Of a DNA stretch of 29,010 nucleotides, positions 330-26,220 are shown in pieces (the stretch's first letter is position 1; each line of letters begins with the position of its first letter). Below the pieces are notes generated by a model that saw nothing but the letters and a program-made list of their open reading frames with translations, searched no databases and had not been told where the DNA came from. Both the position numbers and the translations under genes were made by a program. This stretch comes from a virus. The stretch is taken from the IMG/VR virus record IMGVR_UViG_3300022074_000270, positions 1 to 29,010 of that record; one strand, 5' to 3'.

Positions 330-671
330 TTACCCCAAAACTTTTTTTGTTTGGGGGGTTAGGGGGTATTCTTTTCCTTTTTCTTTGTTATCCTTATTAC
401 TTTCTTTAGTTGTGGTTAGGCGCTGGTTAGCTGCTGGTTGATCGCTGGTTAGCTGCTGGTTAGCTGCTGGTTGATTCGCTGGTTGGTCGTCAACTTCGTC
501 TGACTGATAAGCCTCGAAGTTAACTAGGGTTACAAGCAATCCGCCGTTGGTTGATTTGGTGGTTAGTTCACCGGTTGATTGCAGGTTAGCCATCGCTGTT
601 CTCACATTCTGCCGGGAAAGCCCTACCCTATAGCGACCACATTCCTCGCCTGCTCTGGCATGATCGACCAA
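330..671 (-). pseudogene. truncated winged-helix replication protein
   Basis: The conserved part begins inside the integrase stop region and reads LSRQNVRTAMANL followed by STGELTTKSTN and LVTLVNFEAYQ. This is the pattern of the winged-helix domain of phage DnaD/replisome-organiser-like proteins. It is followed by a low-complexity Asn/Pro/Ala/Gln repeat linker and a Lys/Glu tail. The N-terminal half of the usual domain is missing: the frame opens only at a TTG (671) and overlaps the integrase by 49 bases with no ribosome binding site. I infer a gene whose 5' part was replaced when the integrase arrived. A short expressed protein starting further in cannot be excluded. A different gene (3889-4704) looks like the working initiator. 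Confidence 0.55.
351..386. repeat. 36-bp direct repeat, copy 2
   Basis: Second copy of the 36-bp sequence at 111-146. It encodes the C-terminal end of the 330-671 replication-protein fragment. Confidence 0.9.
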
Positions 672-1828
672 TAAGCCTCTGCCTGCTTGGGGCTTCTCGT
701 TGTGACGTAGTGGTCAAACAAAACTTGTGGGCTACCTCGATGGCCCATCTCTAAAGCTATGCGGCCTGGGTTCTGCTCTGCTTGTAGGCCGTAAGACGCG
801 AACGAGTGGCGCATAGCGTTCTGGCCCCAAGGTTTTGCTTTGCCAGTAGCGCCGACTGCAAATCCAGCAGACGCCTTGGCCCTATCAAACTCGCTGCGCC
901 ATTTGGTTCCGCGCGGCGACAGTGCGCCCGACGTCTGGGCGTAGGGCAACAACCAGGCTTTTAGGTTAGGTCTGATTGAAATGATCCGCCGAAACTTCTT
1001 TTTAGTAACCGCACTTTGTAGCTCTATTAAATCAGTCTCGAGATTTACCTCTGCCCAATCTAAGCGTTGTAGTTCAGAAACCCTGCAACCAGCAAACAAC
1101 CCAATCGCAATGGCCGGTCTAATGGTTTGTGAGGCGTTAGCTAATAAAGCGGCAGCCTCCGCTGGGCTTAAAACAGTTATAGCGGTTTCCGCTTTTTGTG
1201 GGGCTTGCGTCAACGTCGCTGGGTTTGATTCGCAATAGCCCCAGGCGACGCATTGTTTAAATAGCATTACCAATTGAGTCCGATAGTTCCGCCACGTCTT
1301 AGGCGCTATCTGTTCGCTGGTTCTGGCAGATTTCAAACTAAGCAACCAACCGTCTAAATCTTTAACAGTTATTGCTGCGATGCTTCTATTGCCGAAATCG
1401 TCAGCAAAGCGCCCTAGCCGCGACTTTGTATCATTTACGGCCCTTTCTGAAAGTCGCATTGATTCTTTCAGTTCGGTAAACTCTGTAACCGCTTGGGCTA
1501 CCGTTACTGATGAAACTGCCGTGTTATGCTCATTCAGAGCGTTTCCTAACGCCTGGCGCAATGACAAGCCAGCGTCGGCTAACCTCTGCCGATACTCGTT
1601 AATTACGGTTTTCTCTTCGTGACTGATCGACAAATTAACGCCGGCGCTTACTAGCTCGGCTTGTTTGTTTTCAGCAAAAGCAACAGCTCTAGTTTTTGCT
1701 TTGAAACCTTTTGAATGTCTTTTGCCACCTTCCACCCAAGACACTCGGCATTTGTAGGTTGGGTGGTTTTGCCACGGTTTGACTGACACGCGAGTGCCAA
1801 GCCTAGATCCAATTCCTTGTTTACCCAT
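623..1828 (-). CDS. int: tyrosine-family integrase
   Basis: Site-specific recombinase that would integrate the phage at a host tRNA gene. The 401-residue protein has an N-terminal AP2-like DNA-binding part (about 15-60), a SAM-like core-binding domain (about 105-205) and a catalytic domain (about 218-395). Visible catalytic residues are R249 (in GCRVSEL), a Lys near 277, R340 (NAMRHSFASY), H363 (MGHRG) and the nucleophile Y374 (FDHYV). The first His of the HxxR box is Asn, a common substitution in phage integrases. It starts at ATG 1828; the attP-like region lies directly upstream, as in many temperate phages. Its 3' end overlaps the truncated replication fragment. Confidence 0.95.
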   Translation of the reverse strand: MGKQGIGSRLGTRVSVKPWQNHPTYKCRVSWVEGGKRHSKGFKAKTRAVAFAENKQAELVSAGVNLSISHEEKTVINEYRQRLADAGLSLRQALGNALNEHNTAVSSVTVAQAVTEFTELKESMRLSERAVNDTKSRLGRFADDFGNRSIAAITVKDLDGWLLSLKSARTSEQIAPKTWRNYRTQLVMLFKQCVAWGYCESNPATLTQAPQKAETAITVLSPAEAAALLANASQTIRPAIAIGLFAGCRVSELQRLDWAEVNLETDLIELQSAVTKKKFRRIISIRPNLKAWLLPYAQTSGALSPRGTKWRSEFDRAKASAGFAVGATGKAKPWGQNAMRHSFASYGLQAEQNPGRIALEMGHRGSPQVLFDHYVTTRSPKQAEAYWSIMPEQARNVVAIG

Positions 1829-11836: not shown

Positions 11837-12085
11837 CTATGGTTTGGTTTCAGATTCGGCCAATTCTGCCTTTTTCTGTTTCAGTTCGATTGCAGCAATT
11901 CTGATGCGATAAATTGCCAAAATCGTGGTAGCAACCGCTGCCAACGCTCCAACAAATGTGGCAATGTTTGAAAAACTTAGCGCAGTTCCGACAGTAAAAC
12001 CTGACGGAATGAACCACCTTTCCCAACCAGGCATCGTGCCATGCAAAACTTTAAACAGCTCCGGTATTTCGCGCCAAAAATTCAT
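11837..12085 (-). CDS. small membrane protein of the lysis cassette
   Basis: 82 residues, coupled to the endolysin by an ATGA overlap. A hydrophobic stretch of about 27 residues (VGTALSFSNIATFVGALAAV, continuing TTILAIYRI) forms one long or two short membrane segments, followed by a charged, coiled-coil-like C-terminus (ELKQKKAELAESE). Position and topology suggest a holin, antiholin or pinholin-type partner; sequence alone does not decide. Confidence 0.6.
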   Translation of the reverse strand: MNFWREIPELFKVLHGTMPGWERWFIPSGFTVGTALSFSNIATFVGALAAVATTILAIYRIRIAAIELKQKKAELAESETKP

Positions 12086-13119
12086 TTACCGTGGCGCTTT
12101 AGAATTTCGGAAATGTCAGAGCGGCACAAGTCACGAAACTCTGACATGGTTAAAGAGTAGCCTTGCCAAACAATAGATCCGCCTGGATCAACCTTTCGGC
12201 CTGGGCTTATCTCGTCATGGCCGACTACGTTTTCTAGTTGGAACACTTCTGGGTTGTTTAGATAAAGCCAAGCCACAAGCCGGCGCAGCGCCCAAACCTG
12301 CGAATCTGTAAAGCGATGATAGTAGCCAGCGGTTATGTTTTCTTTTTGTGGAGAAAACGTCACCTCGTAATTGGAGATTCTGTTTCGAGGATTTCGCTGG
12401 TTTTTATCCCACCAAGGATAAAACCCGTTTTTGTCTTTTGAAAGCATTCCGGCGGCCTGAACTTCGACGCCAGCATACTCGTCAGATACATAACCAGCAG
12501 CGCCAGTGTGATTGCTTTTCCCGGCGTGATAGCCGTAAAACTCCAGCGAATCGCTTTGAGCAGTTTTGCCTTCGTCATCAATCAACAAATAAAGCATCCC
12601 AGTATTCCGCATCAAACTGTTGCCGGCCTCAAGTCCGTTCCGATGGCCGGCAGTCCAATGAACAACCAAACCTTTCGGATAGCCTGCACTGTAGCGCCCT
12701 CTTTTGTTGCCGCTCGTAGCGTCTTTTGCCCAAGGAATCCAACGACGCTTTTCTCCAAAACTGTAGTTTGCAGGGTCAAACAAACCGCGCGGATCGTCTT
12801 CGTTTAAATCGACATCCGTTTTGCTGTTGCGCTCTGTCGGCGAAGCGTCTTGGCCTGGCTTGTAGTCTAGAAAATCGTAATAGTCGGCAATGAACTCGTT
12901 CCGTTCGTCAATGCTCAAGTGCTTGTAAAAACAAAACTCTTCGTTTTCGTCGGTTTGCGAAAGAAACCAAATACGCTTCCAGGCTCGGCTTTTTTCGTGA
13001 GAATCAGACAACATAACTAAAGAGGTTGTGCTACTCGCCAATAACGAGAGCGCGAATATAAGAAAAGTGACTGTGGAACCGTTGGCCTGAGCCAACCAGC
13101 TTGCCTTCGTCAAACTCAT
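12082..13119 (-). CDS. N-acetylmuramoyl-L-alanine amidase endolysin
   Basis: A 345-residue peptidoglycan amidase (Amidase_2/PGRP fold, about 145-320). Zinc ligands are H154 (LVVHWTAGH), H301 (VGHDEISPGRK) and D311 (DPGG), with K309 as the likely catalytic lysine; H198 (YGYHAGKSN) is also conserved. From the first start the N-terminus carries a hydrophobic segment (STVTFLIFALSLLASSTTSL), which would be a signal peptide or SAR-type anchor. A second start at 13014 (MLSDSHEKSR) would remove it. The 13119 start has a weak AAGGG upstream and lies inside the spanin gene. The 110-residue acidic insert before the amidase domain is unassigned. Confidence 0.85.
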   Translation of the reverse strand: MSLTKASWLAQANGSTVTFLIFALSLLASSTTSLVMLSDSHEKSRAWKRIWFLSQTDENEEFCFYKHLSIDERNEFIADYYDFLDYKPGQDASPTERNSKTDVDLNEDDPRGLFDPANYSFGEKRRWIPWAKDATSGNKRGRYSAGYPKGLVVHWTAGHRNGLEAGNSLMRNTGMLYLLIDDEGKTAQSDSLEFYGYHAGKSNHTGAAGYVSDEYAGVEVQAAGMLSKDKNGFYPWWDKNQRNPRNRISNYEVTFSPQKENITAGYYHRFTDSQVWALRRLVAWLYLNNPEVFQLENVVGHDEISPGRKVDPGGSIVWQGYSLTMSEFRDLCRSDISEILKRHGK

Positions 13120-13270
13120 AAACGACGCCCTTACTCAACGTGATGTGTGGCGGTTGATATAAGGCTGATTTGTTCAACCGCTCTACGTCGCCTTTTGTCC
13201 AGCGCATCGATTCGCAACTTGTCAGATGGATCAGCGCCAGACAAACCAAGCTGATAAATTTGATCCTCAT
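13031..13270 (-). CDS. outer-membrane spanin lipoprotein (Rz1-like)
   Basis: 79 residues starting at ATG 13270. A basic start and hydrophobic signal (KFISLVCLALIHLTSC) end in the lipobox L-T-S-C, giving a lipid-modified Cys19 and a mature protein of 61 residues. It overlaps the Rz-like gene by 140 bases in another frame and the endolysin by 89, the classic nested spanin layout. The mature part lacks the proline-rich tract common in Rz1. Spanins disrupt the outer membrane at the last step of lysis. Confidence 0.7.
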   Translation of the reverse strand: MRIKFISLVCLALIHLTSCESMRWTKGDVERLNKSALYQPPHITLSKGVVYEFDEGKLVGSGQRFHSHFSYIRALVIGE

Positions 13271-13376
13271 ATTGCTCAATCTGCCGGTAAAGTTTGCGTT
13301 GCTCCACTATTGGCCAAACCTTTAAAAACGACGTCGCCGCCAAAAAAAAGGCGTGGATCGTTTTAAAGATTGTCAT
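13131..13376 (-). CDS. inner-membrane spanin (Rz-like)
   Basis: 81 residues from ATG 13376. An N-terminal membrane anchor (IHAFFLAATSFLKVWPI) is followed by a coiled-coil region (EQRKLYRQIEQYEDQIYQL, DALDKRRRRAVEQISL), the standard form of an i-spanin. The Rz1-like lipoprotein starts inside it, in a different frame. The start overlaps the holin end by 14 bases. Assignment rests on topology and nested position. Confidence 0.7.
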   Translation of the reverse strand: MTIFKTIHAFFLAATSFLKVWPIVEQRKLYRQIEQYEDQIYQLGLSGADPSDKLRIDALDKRRRRAVEQISLISTATHHVE

Positions 13377-13572
13377 CCGGGAAAAGTGTAATCCTTTCCT
13401 TCGTGACAAGGCGCAGCGCAAAGTTTAGTCCGCCTAAAGTCAGGAGAATGCCGGCAGCGTTTTCTGCGACAAATTCTCCTACGGATGGAACGAAGGCGGC
13501 GATCACGCCTGCAAGCGTAGTAATAAACGCAGCGGCAACGGTTTTGCTTTTGAATAGGGGTTTTGTTGTCAT
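13363..13572 (-). CDS. holin-like two-segment membrane protein
   Basis: 69 residues with two hydrophobic segments (about 12-31, VAAAFITTLAGVIAAFVPSV; about 39-56, AAGILLTLGGLNFALRLV) and a short acidic tail. It directly precedes the spanins and endolysin. Holins form the membrane lesion that times lysis. A second candidate lies at 11837-12085, so one may be the holin and the other its antagonist. Confidence 0.65.
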   Translation of the reverse strand: MTTKPLFKSKTVAAAFITTLAGVIAAFVPSVGEFVAENAAGILLTLGGLNFALRLVTKERITLFPDDNL

Positions 13573-13584
13573 AGGTAAATTGTC

Positions 13585-14826
13585 TTAGGCGTTTTCAAAG
13601 TAGATTGAGACAATCAAACCAGAGTATTCGCCTGAGCTGTTAAATGACGTCGTGTTGCTTGATTCAAAACCCAGACCAATGACTTGGCCTTGGTTGACTG
13701 AAAGGCTTAGGCCGGTAGCGGTAACGCCACTGTTTTGGGAAATGTCCCAAGCGATAGAGGTTAAAGAAGTGTCAGAAGTTCCGTCAGTGGCGCTTCGTAT
13801 GCCGAAATCTAAAGTAACGGTGTCGTAATCATCTCCGCTGCCATTGTATTCAAGATAGGCAAAGCTGATTTTACTAACCGTGACGTTTTGCGTTGCAATA
13901 AAAATAGGCTCAAGCTGTCCGCTTCCGGTGTCGGCGTTGACAATATCAAACCAGGCGTCGATAGCTTCGGTCCTTTCTAGAATTACTTCCGATTGCAAAA
14001 ACTCGTAACTAGTTGCTCCGCCGCCACCACTGCTGCCCGCTGTTCTAAGCTTCCAAACCTTCTGATTGGTGCTTGCAGCGTAATCGTCTGGGCGAATGAC
14101 GTCCGGGGCGCTCTCAGCGTCCGTTCCGCTAGTCAGTTGGTAAAACCGCAACTGGTTGGAAGTGTCGGCGTCAACGAAAGCAATAATCTCCCCTACCGTT
14201 CGCGTTGTCGTTATTATGTTGTCTAGGTCAACGCTTGTTCCACCAATTTGCGAAGTCACTTCTGGTATAAATTCGATGGCGTCGCTTTTTAGCAAGTAGG
14301 CCGTAGGATCGCCGGCGTTGCTTGGCGTCCCCTCTCCCCCAAGCAGAATGTCGTGCTTGATTTTTACCGTAACGTCGTTGACGGAACTGCGCGGTTTGCC
14401 GCCGCTCGATTCTGTAAAAGTCAGTTCGAGCTGTGCCTTTTCGATTGCTGCAACGTCGTTGCTGCTGTTTGAATCGTCCCTAGCCAGCAGCGTGTTAATT
14501 TGCGTAGTGTTTAGATCAAGTTCGGCGGTGTAGGTCTTGGCGGCGCTGTCGTGCGTCCAAGTTGCAACTGAAGCCAATAAATCGCCATCGCTGTAGTCGC
14601 CCTCGGCCTTAATGCCTAGCGTTATTGTTGCCGCAACGGGTAGGTTTTCGGCAGTCCATGCTGGCGCAGTTAAAACGCTAGAAGGAAGCGATGTATCTGG
14701 CGAAGTGCCATATTGAAGCACCACTTCGACGCCATCGCCAGCTTTGAAGTCTAGAGATTCCAGCGCCGTATCGAGCCCTGGGGTGCTTACTAAGTAGCCA
14801 AGTCTTTTATCAAAAAATAAGTTCAT
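13585..14826 (-). CDS. tail fibre or receptor-binding-like structural protein
   Basis: 413 residues, rich in Ser, Thr, Asp, Asn and Gly with an alternating beta pattern and no enzyme motif. A Gly linker (SSGGGG, about 271-276) separates two parts; the N-terminal part (about 1-140) looks like a repeatable Ig/beta-sandwich, and the C-terminal ~130 residues a beta-sandwich adhesin tip. It lies between the sugar-modifying cassette and lysis genes, the usual end of a tail operon. It is preceded by the GGGCTAGG element at 14857. Receptor binding is inferred; baseplate or head decoration are alternatives. Confidence 0.6.
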   Translation of the reverse strand: MNLFFDKRLGYLVSTPGLDTALESLDFKAGDGVEVVLQYGTSPDTSLPSSVLTAPAWTAENLPVAATITLGIKAEGDYSDGDLLASVATWTHDSAAKTYTAELDLNTTQINTLLARDDSNSSNDVAAIEKAQLELTFTESSGGKPRSSVNDVTVKIKHDILLGGEGTPSNAGDPTAYLLKSDAIEFIPEVTSQIGGTSVDLDNIITTTRTVGEIIAFVDADTSNQLRFYQLTSGTDAESAPDVIRPDDYAASTNQKVWKLRTAGSSGGGGATSYEFLQSEVILERTEAIDAWFDIVNADTGSGQLEPIFIATQNVTVSKISFAYLEYNGSGDDYDTVTLDFGIRSATDGTSDTSLTSIAWDISQNSGVTATGLSLSVNQGQVIGLGFESSNTTSFNSSGEYSGLIVSIYFENA

Positions 14827-14903: not shown

Positions 14904-15551
14904 TCAAATAAGACGAACATTTTGCCAAAGCGCGTTATCGTCGTTGTAGAAGTCTAAAATGTTAGAAACGGCTAGCTTGCTCAACGAATCAGCACTAGGC
15001 CGGTCGGTTTCGTGCATTTTTTTTGCTGGCAAAACAATCGGTCTGCCTCCGTAAGTAGCCACCAAGCGGTCTAGGCCGGCTTGCAATGAATCAAAACTAA
15101 TCATTTCGACGGGTTGCGTAACGTCTAAATAGTCGGCCTGCCTAGTAAAATGGTGACAAACCGTTGCTAGTGACGCTAGGTTGACGCGCTCGAAAAACGT
15201 GGACGGGTTGCTAGATGCAAAAAGTGCCGAATAAACTTGAGCCTCCTCGCTGCTGACAAGTGGATGCCAAGTGCTTTGTCTGCTGCACCATGACCAACTT
15301 TTTAACGCTCGTTCTATTGGATTTCTAATGACGCAAAATAGCTGCTTTGTTCTAGCAGATTCAAACGCTTGATAAAGTTTGCTGGCTGTCTGGTGATGAT
15401 AAGCGCGGTGATTTCCACCATATTGGCCAAGTGCTTTTCGGATAGATCCGCCGGCGTTTCCGGGAATGTGAACTAGAAACAAAGTGTCATGGCCGGCCTT
15501 TTCTTCTGAAATTGCAGGGTCAGCTCTTGGATTTGGATAACTAGCCTGCAT
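14904..15551 (-). CDS. sulfotransferase-family protein
   Basis: 215 residues from ATG 15551, overlapping the glycosyltransferase stop by 11 bases (an in-frame start at 15590 is possible). LVHIPGNAGGS (26-36) matches the 5'-phosphosulfate loop, and RNPIERALKSW (76-86) the 3'-phosphate-binding motif of PAPS-dependent carbohydrate sulfotransferases. It would transfer sulfate from PAPS, supplied by the host, to a sugar. Coupled to a GT9 glycosyltransferase and next to a fibre-like gene, it probably sulfates a glycan on the virion or host surface. Such enzymes are rare in phages. Acceptor unknown. Confidence 0.75.
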   Translation of the reverse strand: MQASYPNPRADPAISEEKAGHDTLFLVHIPGNAGGSIRKALGQYGGNHRAYHHQTASKLYQAFESARTKQLFCVIRNPIERALKSWSWCSRQSTWHPLVSSEEAQVYSALFASSNPSTFFERVNLASLATVCHHFTRQADYLDVTQPVEMISFDSLQAGLDRLVATYGGRPIVLPAKKMHETDRPSADSLSKLAVSNILDFYNDDNALWQNVRLI

Positions 15552-16488
15552 AGCTTTCCAAAAATGCTGCAATTTGCGGGTAAACCTCACTTACGGTTTG
15601 ACTGAGACAAGGTGGGTGCTTGTAGCCTGGTTCATGCTCGCAATAGATTTTTGCCCGGCAAGGTTGCTGCCCGAGCGGACAATAACCTGTTACTGGCAAA
15701 GTCGGCACTTGGTAAATGCTCATCGTTTGTTGAGCTGGATAGCTACCAAACAACCCGACCAGCGGAATCTGTAAAGCGCCGGCAACGTGCAACCATCCGG
15801 TATCCGGCGTTATGACTGCCTTGCTTTCGGCTATCAATGCTGCCTGCTGGCGGATCGTTAGCCCCATTGTGGTAGGCTCGGCACTCAAAAACGGCTTGTC
15901 GTGTTCTATCAAGTAAGCGTCGAAGTCCCATTGCACTCGTTGGAATAACTCAGGAGTAGCGGCAAAGTTTTTTGTCTTGCTTGCTGATTGATAAACCACG
16001 CCGACTGGGTTAGACAATCCGCGCGTCGAAAACCAATCTTTTGCCCACAATCGCTCTGCCGGCGTTACCATCACTTGCGGTCTGTTTGTTGCTTGCAGTC
16101 CCATCGCGGCAGCAAACAGCAAAGACCTATTGCCTGGCTCTGGGCAGCGAAAATACCCTTCGATCGCAGCGCATGGCCCAGGATTGGACAAATCTAAAAT
16201 CTTGGAGTCTAAATCCAGTAGCCCAGGTGACGTTATCACCTTATCAACCGCTGGATGGTGTAATGCGATAGACGCGACGGGATCGACGCCTAGTAAAGTG
16301 GTTTGGATTGTAGGGTGTTTTTCTCGAAATGATGAGATAGCGCCTAGTAGGGATACCATATCCCCTAAACCTCGCCTAGTGCGGACAAACGTAACGACGC
16401 TGCAATTGCCAAGCTGCAAAGGAACTAGCGGAAGGTCTTTACTAAGTTGGCTATAAGGCAGGCGATAACCTAAATTTGGCAAACTCAA
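15541..16488 (-). CDS. family 9 glycosyltransferase (heptosyltransferase-like)
   Basis: 315 residues with GT9 signatures: RTRRGLGDMVSLLGAI near 36-51 (acceptor-side loop) and VITPDTGWLHVAGALQIPLV followed by GLFGS (about 225-250; nucleotide-sugar side). A C-terminal cysteine group (GYCPLGQQPC, YCEHEPGYKHPPC) may bind metal. GT9 enzymes add heptose or related sugars to LPS core. The start is uncertain: TTG 16488 is the first usual codon, yet the frame stays open and protein-like up to an ATT at 16554 (IKIVNHSVAKKDAQ). An inverted repeat covers the TTG. Likely role: host-surface or virion glycan modification with the next gene. Confidence 0.82.
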   Translation of the reverse strand: MSLPNLGYRLPYSQLSKDLPLVPLQLGNCSVVTFVRTRRGLGDMVSLLGAISSFREKHPTIQTTLLGVDPVASIALHHPAVDKVITSPGLLDLDSKILDLSNPGPCAAIEGYFRCPEPGNRSLLFAAAMGLQATNRPQVMVTPAERLWAKDWFSTRGLSNPVGVVYQSASKTKNFAATPELFQRVQWDFDAYLIEHDKPFLSAEPTTMGLTIRQQAALIAESKAVITPDTGWLHVAGALQIPLVGLFGSYPAQQTMSIYQVPTLPVTGYCPLGQQPCRAKIYCEHEPGYKHPPCLSQTVSEVYPQIAAFLESYAG

Positions 16489-16529
16489 AGTTGATTGCAG
16501 ATGGTCGCAACTTTGAGCGTCTTTTTTAG
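16484..16529. promoter_or_regulatory. 10-bp perfect inverted repeat at glycosyltransferase start
   Basis: CTCAAAGTTG (16484-16493) and CAACTTTGAG (16508-16517) pair perfectly around a 14-base loop, with CGTCTTTTTT following on the plus strand. As plus-strand RNA this is a terminator; as minus-strand RNA it would hide the TTG start. No rightward gene ends here, so it may block antisense reading or control translation of the glycosyltransferase. Confidence 0.6.
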
Positions 16530-16634
16530 CAACCGAGTGATTTACAATTTTAATGACGGTAAATTTTTAGTTGCCCCATTTTAACTTGTTTTGCGCTAAT
16601 TTTCAAACCGGCACGTTGTGTGGTAAATTAGGGC

Positions 16635-17264
16635 ATGGCCGATGGCGTAGAATTTGAATTGGATACTCGGGAAATTGTCGAGGCGCTTTCTTGGGTTGAG
16701 AAAAACAGCAAAAAAGATGCTCTGGAGGTAGTCAACCAAGCAGCTATCGGCGCTTGCATCGGAGGTGGGCAACGCAAGAACGGCACTTTTTACGAGGGCG
16801 CTTTGCAGAAAACAAAGACAGCAAGCAAGGCAAGCATCGGCAAGTTCGATCCAGACAAAAAAGCTAAAGGCGCATTGACCAAAAAACGCGCTAGGTTGTT
16901 TCACGCCTTAGCTTCGAGAGGTAGCAAAAAAGGCAAAGCAAAAAAAGGCCAAGGCAACGCAAAGCTGGCAAAAAGAATCTACAGTGGTCGCCAAAGTGCG
17001 CGTGGTTATGCAAAAGGTATTTGGCTTAAAATTGCTAGAGACTTGGGCGCTAGGGTGAGAACTTACGCCGATACTAATATTGCCCACGGCAAAAAAGCAA
17101 CAATCAGAACCTTAGCGGCGTTTGTGGAGATCGACAAAACAGATGGCTGGTCGGATGAAATGAAAAACGCCTACAAAAAGGGGTTAGCAAATTCAGCTCG
17201 GGATATGGTTCGTCACGTCGAACAAAAGCTAAACTCTCGATTTAAGCAAATTGAGCCTAAGTGA
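16635..17264 (+). CDS. basic protein, possible gp10-like tail completion factor
   Basis: 209 residues, the only rightward gene in the late arm. Very Lys- and Ala-rich in the middle (about 80-115, with KKGKAKKGQGNAKLAKR), with helical ends (DTREIVEALSWVEKNSKKDA; MKNAYKKGLANSARDMVRHV). This helix-basic loop-helix outline recalls HK97 gp10-like head-tail completion proteins, but I see no decisive motif; a DNA-binding moron protein is the alternative. It ends with an 8-base overlap against the convergent gene at 17257. Ribosome binding is weak (AGGGC directly before ATG), so near-leaderless translation is possible. Confidence 0.5.
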   Translation: MADGVEFELDTREIVEALSWVEKNSKKDALEVVNQAAIGACIGGGQRKNGTFYEGALQKTKTASKASIGKFDPDKKAKGALTKKRARLFHALASRGSKKGKAKKGQGNAKLAKRIYSGRQSARGYAKGIWLKIARDLGARVRTYADTNIAHGKKATIRTLAAFVEIDKTDGWSDEMKNAYKKGLANSARDMVRHVEQKLNSRFKQIEPK

Positions 17265-24231: not shown

Positions 24232-26220
24232 TTAGCTGAGAGCGCCAGCGTGAGCTGTGCCATCGTCGCCAATAACGAAGCTGTTTGGCTGGAGAAGTCC
24301 GCAATCTGCAAAAGTCTCGGCGTAAAGCTCAACCTGACCACTCTTCTTCTGAGAGTAGGGATCGTAGGTAAGCTGAATTCCGCCCCAGAGAGCAACAAAC
24401 AACTGTGAGAAGTCGCCAAGGATAACCTTGCCGGCAGTAACGTCGGTGTGTTCGCAGAATGGGCGACCGGCTACGCTATAGCCATTGTTGTTAACGTCTT
24501 CTTCGATCACGAAAGTTCCGGTTGAAGCGGCGAGTTGGGTCTTATACCAACCAGCCCAAACGGACGTGTCAGTGAGCCAGCTTGCGTTGGCAAGTGGGGC
24601 GTTGTTATCGCGGTAGTCAGCGATCTGGTCAACGATGTTTGTCCAGAGAGCGTTAGCACTATTCCAGGTGTAGGCGTCAGTTCCAGAAGCGTTCAATACG
24701 CCGGTAGGAGCGTCGCCGCCTGCACCGTTGATAGCTGCGCGATCAATTGCGGAAGCGATTCCGTATTGAAGCTCGCCACGAACCCATGCTTCGAAGTCCA
24801 CGGAGGACTGAGCAAGGAGCTGCTTAGAAACAGCAGTGCCTGCGCCAACACGCTTAGGTGTCAAAACAAGATTAGCTGCAAAAGTAGCGTCAGCGTTTGA
24901 AATGGTGTCAGTCTCAGCGTCAAACGTGCCGGTGTAACCAGCGGTTGAGCGTGGAAACTCAAGATTGCCTTGAGAATCGCGGAAGATAGTAGCGCCAACT
25001 TTCGGCAGAATGCTGTAGTCGCGGAGGTAATCCGTGATTTCTTGCATTTCAGTGCCAACAGTGTTTCCACCGGAAGTTCCTGTTCCAGCGGTTGAGGCAT
25101 TTTGTGGGCGGCTTGTGGAAGCGTTCCAGTACTCAGCCGGGATCAGGAGGCCGTCAGCGACTTTGCCAGTTGCGTTGCGATACTTGCTAGAAAGTTCTTC
25201 TTGAACTTCTTTCTCGAGTCCGTCCAGGCGTCCTTCGTTCACGTGCTGCTTAATAGCTTTGAATAGCGAGTATTCTTTAGCTTCAGGGGAATTTACGCGG
25301 GAAGCGTCTTGGAGAGCTTCAGCGTTAATTGCAGGCTCGGAAGGAACGAAGTTAGAGATAACGGAATCTTTAAACGATTCCAGCTCAACGCCGTTTTCGA
25401 TAGCGTTTTTCACTTCGCTTTCGTCAACGCCGAAACGCTTGCCGATAGCGGCGATTTCATCTCTGCGCGGCTTGTCGGCTGCCAGAGCGTCTTTGATGCT
25501 GACTTTAGGTTCGTCAGCTTTTGGAGTCTCACTCATTGTAATAATAGAGTTTTTAGGTTCTGTTTTTGGGTGGTTTTTGGGTTCGGGTTTAGGTTCGTCG
25601 GTATCCGTTTTGGGAGTTCCAAAAACCAACCCTTTAGGTAAATTGTGTGGAAGTTTGTCGCGCCAGTTTTCAGCGCAGGCAGCGGCCTTAAATGCTTTGG
25701 TCACTTCGTCGGCAAACCCTTTTTCGGCGGCTTCAATGCCGTCCATCCAAGTTTCACGCGCCATGTATTCCTCAATCTCGTCTTCGTCTAGTCCAGTTCT
25801 CGTGGCGTAAGCCGTGACGATTGCTTTTTGGATTTTCTGAAGGCTGTCGGCCATGTCGATCATGTCCTGCGCGTCTCCTCCAACCATTGCCCACGGGTTG
25901 TGGATCATTATAAAGGCATTCTCTGGGACAACGATGTGGTCGGCGGCCATCAAAATGACGGATGCCATGCTGCCGGCGAATCCTTCGACCTTAGCTGTAA
26001 CGTGGGCCGGATGCTCAACCAGTTTGTTATACATTGCCCAGCCTTCGATGACGTCGCCGCCTGGTGAATGTATTGAGAGGTTTATGGCTTCGACGCCTTC
26101 TAAAGCGTCCAGTTCTGCCATGAATGTTTTAGCGTCAACGCCGTAAAGACCTATCTCATCGTGGATCGAGATTTTTGCCTCTGCGCCTTTCGCCTGGATT
26201 GAATACCAAGAATTTTTCAT
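24232..26220 (-). CDS. ClpP-like prohead protease fused to HK97-type major capsid protein
   Basis: 662 residues in one frame. Residues about 1-185 are an S14/ClpP-like protease: SIHSPGGDVIEG, nucleophile S84 (GFAGSMAS), H107 (MIHNPW), and ETWMDGIEAAEKG where Glu replaces the usual Asp. Residues about 200-330 are a charged Pro/Glu/Lys linker and helical delta/scaffold-like part. About 345-662 is the HK97-fold capsid (LIPAEYWN, LTPKRVGAGTAVSKQLL, VDFEAWVRGEL, IDRAAINGAGGDAP). The protease would cut the precursor during head maturation. An internal ATG (residue 229, base 25536) could give separate capsid, though without a ribosome site. Protease and capsid are separate genes in most relatives. 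Confidence 0.92.
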   Translation of the reverse strand: MKNSWYSIQAKGAEAKISIHDEIGLYGVDAKTFMAELDALEGVEAINLSIHSPGGDVIEGWAMYNKLVEHPAHVTAKVEGFAGSMASVILMAADHIVVPENAFIMIHNPWAMVGGDAQDMIDMADSLQKIQKAIVTAYATRTGLDEDEIEEYMARETWMDGIEAAEKGFADEVTKAFKAAACAENWRDKLPHNLPKGLVFGTPKTDTDEPKPEPKNHPKTEPKNSIITMSETPKADEPKVSIKDALAADKPRRDEIAAIGKRFGVDESEVKNAIENGVELESFKDSVISNFVPSEPAINAEALQDASRVNSPEAKEYSLFKAIKQHVNEGRLDGLEKEVQEELSSKYRNATGKVADGLLIPAEYWNASTSRPQNASTAGTGTSGGNTVGTEMQEITDYLRDYSILPKVGATIFRDSQGNLEFPRSTAGYTGTFDAETDTISNADATFAANLVLTPKRVGAGTAVSKQLLAQSSVDFEAWVRGELQYGIASAIDRAAINGAGGDAPTGVLNASGTDAYTWNSANALWTNIVDQIADYRDNNAPLANASWLTDTSVWAGWYKTQLAASTGTFVIEEDVNNNGYSVAGRPFCEHTDVTAGKVILGDFSQLFVALWGGIQLTYDPYSQKKSGQVELYAETFADCGLLQPNSFVIGDDGTAHAGALS

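Follow-up and report, generated by a model that had tools for sequence, protein, structure and literature searches.

Comparable Phage and Bacterial Systems

The serotype-converting gtrABC cassettes of temperate phages consist of a flippase, a bactoprenol glucosyltransferase and a serotype-specific glycosyltransferase encoded near attP. Phage enzymes can also act on the virion itself, as glycosylation of virion proteins has been established in the mycobacteriophages Che8, Corndog and Myrna (PMC12363180 and PMC12619734, citing Freeman et al., 2023); in the portions of these papers considered here the targets are capsid and tail tube, and no sulfotransferase partner is mentioned. Phage sulfotransferases have been recorded without known function (PMC10580990). 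A preliminary description of the locus analyzed here held them to be few; they are less rare than that, as a PHROG family exists for them and huge phages carry several beside glycosyltransferases. On the bacterial side, TibC is a heptosyltransferase-type enzyme able to modify a surface protein (PMC4358343).

Here we describe a pair of genes for a GT9-family glycosyltransferase (GT) and a family-2 sulfotransferase-like protein (ST) beside a fibre gene, in a 29,010-base virus record from a temperate-type tailed phage (the whole stretch is termed the “window”). As with gtrABC, this appears to be a phage-borne glycan modification linked to receptor use, but the window has GT9 and ST in the late fibre/lysis block and not by the attachment site, with no GtrA or GtrB beside GT. 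With the mycobacteriophages, as far as those papers were covered, it would share the idea of phage glycosyltransferases acting on the phage's own structural proteins, whereas the window phage is known from an environmental contig alone. Phage glycosyltransferases and sulfotransferase relatives were already known separately; what is new is their coupling in a triad with one particular fibre head, and we found no paper on a cassette of GT9, sulfotransferase and fibre in the open literature, a scope that leaves most subscription papers outside. The target of chemical decoration by these phages is probably either the fibre they carry or the host surface to which it binds. We tentatively favor, at somewhat short of an even chance, that fibre head, GT and ST form a mobile, exchangeable late-gene cassette that decorates the fibre.

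The Overlapping Gene Pair

The features of the cassette in the window are as follows.

15541 to 16488, minus strand (start uncertain, maybe to about 16554): GT9-family glycosyltransferase (GT), PF01075 at E=5.5e-10
14904 to 15551, minus strand: family-2 sulfotransferase-like protein (ST), from PHROG_3347 in its homologues, hhalign and motifs
15541 to 15551, minus strand: ST start overlapping GT stop by 11 bases, conserved in four of four loci
13585 to 14826, minus strand: fibre-type gene, third cassette member, predicted from its C-terminal fold
13588 to 14004, minus strand: predicted jelly-roll head domain at the fibre C-terminus, about 138 residues, common to the fibre genes beside GT and ST in the other three phages
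16578 to 16606, minus strand: promoter-like site TTGAAA-17-TAAAAT upstream of GT (10/12)

Both leftward ORFs lie at the place and on the strand first described and overlap by 11 bases, a stretch that reads ATGCAGGCTAG in the window and ATGCCGCATAA, ATGCTGTCTAA and ATGCCGCATAA in three homologous loci. Since the overlap recurs in these loci, the ST start (ATG 15551) is fixed, and its conservation suggests translational coupling. The fibre-like gene reported beside the pair is also there, downstream of ST on the same strand after a gap of 77 bases, and the link turned out stronger than had been claimed, being seen in all four loci. The promoter-like site ahead of GT is the best within the 10 kb scanned, where the number of sites found was not above chance. 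Codon-level comparison of GT and ST gave pN of 0.15–0.30 with saturated pS, i.e., purifying selection; both ORFs are real and not chance frames, and the clear selection on ST indicates that the protein is in use.

The GT9 assignment held: the motif VITPDTGWLHVAGA was confirmed, and PF01075 scored 39.4 bits against a cut-off of 22, which the GT copies of two other loci (L002 and L004) also passed. TIGR02193 (LPS heptosyltransferase I) matched at E=9.4e-12 with 44.8 bits against an equivalog cut-off of 185.3, and TIGR02195 (heptosyltransferase II) with 31.1 bits against 134.6, placing the window GT more than 100 bits below both NCBIfam cut-offs. The residues D43 (in GLGD), D229 and H234 align with D13, D261 and H266 of WaaC and are invariant among the GT copies, and DTGWLH is the donor motif. 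GT reads as a GT9 enzyme with an intact-looking catalytic site, and its donor would be ADP-heptose-like by family. Salmonella WaaC (RfaC) and WaaF (RfaF) share with it the GT9 profile, the GxGD aspartate, the DTG/DSG..H donor motif and a catalytic core of similar length, but it differs from them in its identity of about 21–23%, an N-terminal extension, a four-cysteine C-terminal segment and in being phage-encoded beside a fibre. Its frame has no ATG start, the choices being TTG 16488 and rarer codons as far as about 16554, and the N-terminus is longer in its homologues than in the window GT read from 16488. Identity is 67–70% between the window and the three other phage copies and 62–77% among all four.

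The autotransporter heptosyltransferases TibC and AAH resemble GT in being of the GT-B heptosyltransferase type with four cysteines near the C-terminus, and in view of their surface-protein target they offer by analogy a model for how GT might glycosylate the fibre (PMC4358343). The window GT is not a member of that family: the cysteines of TibC are at 339/342/358/370, those of GT (C270, C277, C283 and C294, all invariant) are spaced C-x6-C-x5-C-x10-C, and TIGR04414 (autotransporter heptosyltransferase, TibC/AAH) had no match in G000, G001 or G002 at E<=10. Four-cysteine segments occur in other GT9 proteins, and this segment was accordingly not accepted as a sign of a TibC-type enzyme. A correspondence of spacing between Arg286/Trp305 of TibC and R213/W232 of GT was dropped as well, because H234 of the GT9 motif is the likelier counterpart and TIGR04414 did not match.

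Of the reported PAPS-type sulfotransferase, the family homology and the two motifs (HIPGNAGGS and RNPIERALKSW) stood, but two residues of the usual active site are replaced in all four copies. Taken alone, the window ST has no Pfam match and no PDB relative, Pfam Sulfotransfer_2 (PF03567) did not reach its cut-off, and a single-protein scan gave no relatives, which were found only after the pair in L002 allowed alignments. PHROG_3347 (annotated as galactose-3-O-sulfotransferase) then matched four of four ST homologues (best E=1.4e-7), and hhalign of the ST clade against clear huge-phage family-2 sulfotransferases gave a probability of 96.6% and E=6e-10 over 79 N-terminal columns covering both motifs. 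With this family (Sulfotransfer_2; PHROG_3347) ST shares IPxNAGxS and (V/I)R(N/D)PxxR in the same order and a C-terminal Y..D..L pattern. An AF2 model of ST built from four sequences reached a pLDDT of 52.7, too low to judge the fold by, and Foldseek against PDB returned nothing below E=2.6.

Clear family-2 sulfotransferases read HIPKNAGTS and VRNPWDRVVSNY at the two motifs. The lysine of the P-loop (5′-phosphosulfate loop, P-K-x-x-G-T/S), present in L026:2477, L027 and the Leisingera sequence L040, is glycine in all four ST copies, and the serine of the 3′-PB motif is an invariant lysine, Lys84 (RNPIERALK), with Arg76 and the overall pattern retained. For this reason, “PAPS sulfotransferase” is here a statement of homology. 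In the active site of cytosolic sulfotransferases the P-loop lysine and the 3′-PB serine are in contact. Their joint replacement may accordingly be compensatory, one change making up for the other, or it may mean that the usual chemistry was lost. In the second case ST would assist GT9 by binding glycan or positioning the acceptor, or would transfer a different group, and the product would be an unsulfated glycan. Both replacements and the Sulfotransfer_2 score below cut-off point that way; yet ST is under strong purifying selection, a serine-to-lysine change beside a lysine-to-glycine change could keep a lysine near the phosphosulfate, and a huge-phage sulfotransferase paralogue likewise lacks the P-loop lysine (HVPHAAGTS). 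We regard such a loss as rather unlikely, an estimate that cuts across the choice of target (fibre or host) and overlaps the other readings. A scan with the exact variant motif, HIPGNAG, found 24 stretches; only those at the three known loci are sulfotransferase-like.

The huge phages LR756500 and LR756508 carry several family-2 sulfotransferases, also among glycosyltransferases, with 18–27% identity to the window clade, but no adjacent fibre head of the window kind was found in the stretch read. In the 484-kb phage LR756508 (L026, 1811–3677), three sulfotransferase-like genes stand in a row beside apparent GT25-type and other glycosyltransferase genes; one of the three has histidine for the P-loop lysine.

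A Triad Shared by Four Phages

The coupling of the two genes was borne out by the neighborhood search, as the pair with its 11-base overlap was found in three further viral contigs: L002 of phage G001, found with GT, and L004 of G002 and L005 of G003, found through the alignments made thereafter. A fibre gene with the same head domain adjoins the pair in four of four loci. In L004 and L005 it is the gene just before GT, and its C-terminal stretch of approximately 138 residues is homologous to the final 138 of the window fibre; the L005 fibre has collagen-like repeats. In G001 the head domain was found by a separate search, split across the contig ends. As a further observation on G001, the overlap of these ends (L008 and L009, of a 59-kb contig) falls within the fibre gene and suggests that the genome is circular or circularly permuted. 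The gene order is GT-ST then fibre in the window, and fibre then GT-ST in the other three loci, where the frames of fibre, GT and ST overlap (6968/6971 in L004, 6974/6990 in L005 and 320/339 in L002), suggesting co-translation.

The AF2 model of the head has a pLDDT of 76; its best match in BFVD is the tail fibre protein of Gordonia phage GMA2 (E=1.7e-5), and PDB gave weak jelly-roll matches including TNF and C1q. When the fibre was searched, its C-terminal half as query found relatives and the other half found none. The head diverges faster than GT and ST, and no obvious acceptor motif was seen in it.

Scans of IMG/VR with head, GT and ST each returned the same contigs only, and the head alone, scanned over the viral collection, gave 201 candidate stretches, from which only the same three contigs were confirmed. 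The count of four loci comes from pattern-seeded scans that miss distant relatives. In the scans made, neither GT nor ST had a close bacterial or plasmid relative, and a pattern-limited scan of bacterial genome contigs with GT found none. According to an all-against-all ORF comparison, the triad alone is common to G001 and G003, whose heads are 80%, GTs 77% and STs 67% identical; for each of these proteins no other pair of phages is closer, which is consistent with transfer as a single block. Beyond the triad, the window phage shares SSB and distant replication genes with G002 and a distant integrase with G001, a few further genes are common to G001 and G002, and a spanin-like pair is common to three of the four phages. 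Of the shared genes, GT and ST are among the most conserved. Terminase, portal and capsid belong to differing PHROG families where assignable: the window has a lambda-like TerL and a fused protease-capsid, G001 and G002 have other TerL, portal and capsid families, and G003 has a T7-type adaptor and capsid.

The strict company of head, GT and ST and the overlap of their frames speak for common expression and a shared task. It seems very unlikely to us that GT and ST are a passenger (moron) pair, i.e., two host-interaction genes at a tolerant site by the fibre and lysis genes and functionally unrelated to the fibre. The promoter-like site ahead of GT, the different gene order of the window and the partly shared lysis genes next door would suit such a pair, but head, GT and ST were found only together, the two enzymes rank among the most conserved shared genes, and the frames overlap in three loci.

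Genomic Context in the Window

On the plus strand the window encodes a RecE-like exonuclease, SSB and the large terminase; on the minus strand the order is terminase small subunit, portal, fused ClpP protease-capsid, tape measure, GT, ST, fibre and lysis block. Further features are as follows.

623 to 1828, minus strand: integrase
13363 to 13572, minus strand: holin-like small membrane ORF, first in the lysis block after the cassette, assigned from position and size
13131 to 13421, minus strand: inner-spanin-like ORF, 36–43% identical to G001/G002
13031 to 13279, minus strand: outer-spanin-like lipoprotein ORF, in out-of-frame overlap with the inner-spanin-like ORF, 46–52% identical to G001/G002
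12082 to 13119, minus strand: endolysin (Amidase_2), PF01510 at E=7.1e-9

The pair is immediately surrounded by fibre, lysis and tail genes and lies about 13 kb from the integrase. Base composition is even throughout the region, and the window gave no defense-system match, no Rfam match and no tRNA. ORFs of like size to the holin-like one stand at the equivalent place in G001 and G002, 69% identical mutually and without a BLAST match to that of the window. Two side observations concern the late genes: at 24232–26220 (minus strand) the ClpP-type head-maturation protease and the HK97-type capsid protein form a single 662-aa ORF, and a plausible 209-aa ORF lies at 16635–17264 on the plus strand, within the leftward late operon and just upstream of GT, whose only match is a very weak one to a tail protein (E=0.18).

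Fibre or Host Surface as the Proposed Target

The preliminary description had allowed either the virion or the host surface as the target, the latter with an effect on receptor use. That one fibre head is inherited with the pair and overlaps it in frame shifts the balance toward a role linked to the fibre, and lysogenic LPS conversion becomes less favored because the genes sit at a distance from the integrase, within the late fibre/lysis block.

For decoration of the fibre we propose the following course. Both enzymes would be co-expressed with the late genes and would work as a sequential pair in the cytosol of the infected cell. In a first step, GT9 would move a host-made nucleotide sugar, ADP-heptose-like by family, onto an acceptor; in a second, the ST-like partner would modify the transferred sugar, the simplest case being sulfation with PAPS supplied by the host. 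The fibre protein itself would be the acceptor, which best accounts for the strict tie to one head, and the virion would then carry a charged glycan that may alter adsorption, stability or shielding. Export of either enzyme would be unnecessary if the acceptor were newly made fibre that is still cytosolic, or LPS core under synthesis on the cytosolic side. Co-expression, sequential action, the fibre as acceptor and sulfate as the group are what we infer from the sequences. The same triad in four phages otherwise little related, its exclusive co-occurrence in the collection scanned, the conserved active-site residues of GT and the purifying selection on both enzymes agree with this proposal. 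Weighing against it are the missing P-loop lysine and 3′-PB serine in all four ST copies, the small number of loci, the lysis pair that is partly shared too, and the window, where GT-ST precedes the fibre and GT may have its own promoter. Likewise, divergence is faster in the head than in the enzymes, no acceptor motif is obvious in it, and the nearest characterized GT9 relatives by profile are LPS heptosyltransferases.

These last relatives bear on the other target. GT9 and ST may alter the LPS core or another envelope glycan bound by the head, blocking re-adsorption to host or debris and superinfection, with the fibre recognizing the same glycan. Enzymes altering a host glycan would likewise be inherited together with a fibre that recognizes it, so the tie to the fibre is expected here too, and association alone is no proof of self-modification. 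The GT9 profiles closest to GT are those of LPS heptosyltransferases I and II, lysogeny is possible for the window phage with its integrase, and family-2 sulfotransferases occur in gene clusters for polysaccharides, with an example on a Leisingera plasmid. However, the position of the pair is late-operon and fibre-coupled in three phages and not near an integrase, and no gtr-type flippase or lipid-linked-sugar gene was recognized beside it. Phages with T7-type head genes are usually lytic, and the carrier G003 has such genes. We consider host-surface modification possible but the less probable target, and place decoration of the fibre somewhat above it; the evidence does not separate the two firmly.

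A more specific form of the fibre-decoration proposal, which we think unlikely, is a self-contained and horizontally exchanged fibre-tip system, where the phage's own receptor-binding fibre would be glycosylated and given a charged group, the catalytic lysine of ST having moved from the P-loop to the 3′-phosphate motif. If true, the adhesin of such a phage would be sulfated. Apart from this specific form, the company that the pair keeps with a single fibre head across unrelated phages gives the phage sulfotransferase question a concrete, testable substrate, be it the fibre or the glycan bound by it, and would offer an example of phages swapping a receptor-binding tip along with the enzymes that modify it.

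Other Genes of the Carrier Phages

A second sulfotransferase-like gene, unrelated to ST, was observed in G001 (L019:7038–8171) and in G002 (L023:6625–7737), 53% identical to each other, and none is present in the window. The G002 copy matches PF00685 at E=5.3e-5, just above the cut-off, and in both phages the gene is preceded by the same two genes of no assigned function, possibly structural. G002 also holds giant ORFs at L023:10175–19996 and L024:1–9692, of 3,273 and 3,230 aa when split at the stretch boundary; together they may form a single ORF of some 6,500 aa that occupies the final 20 kb of the contig.
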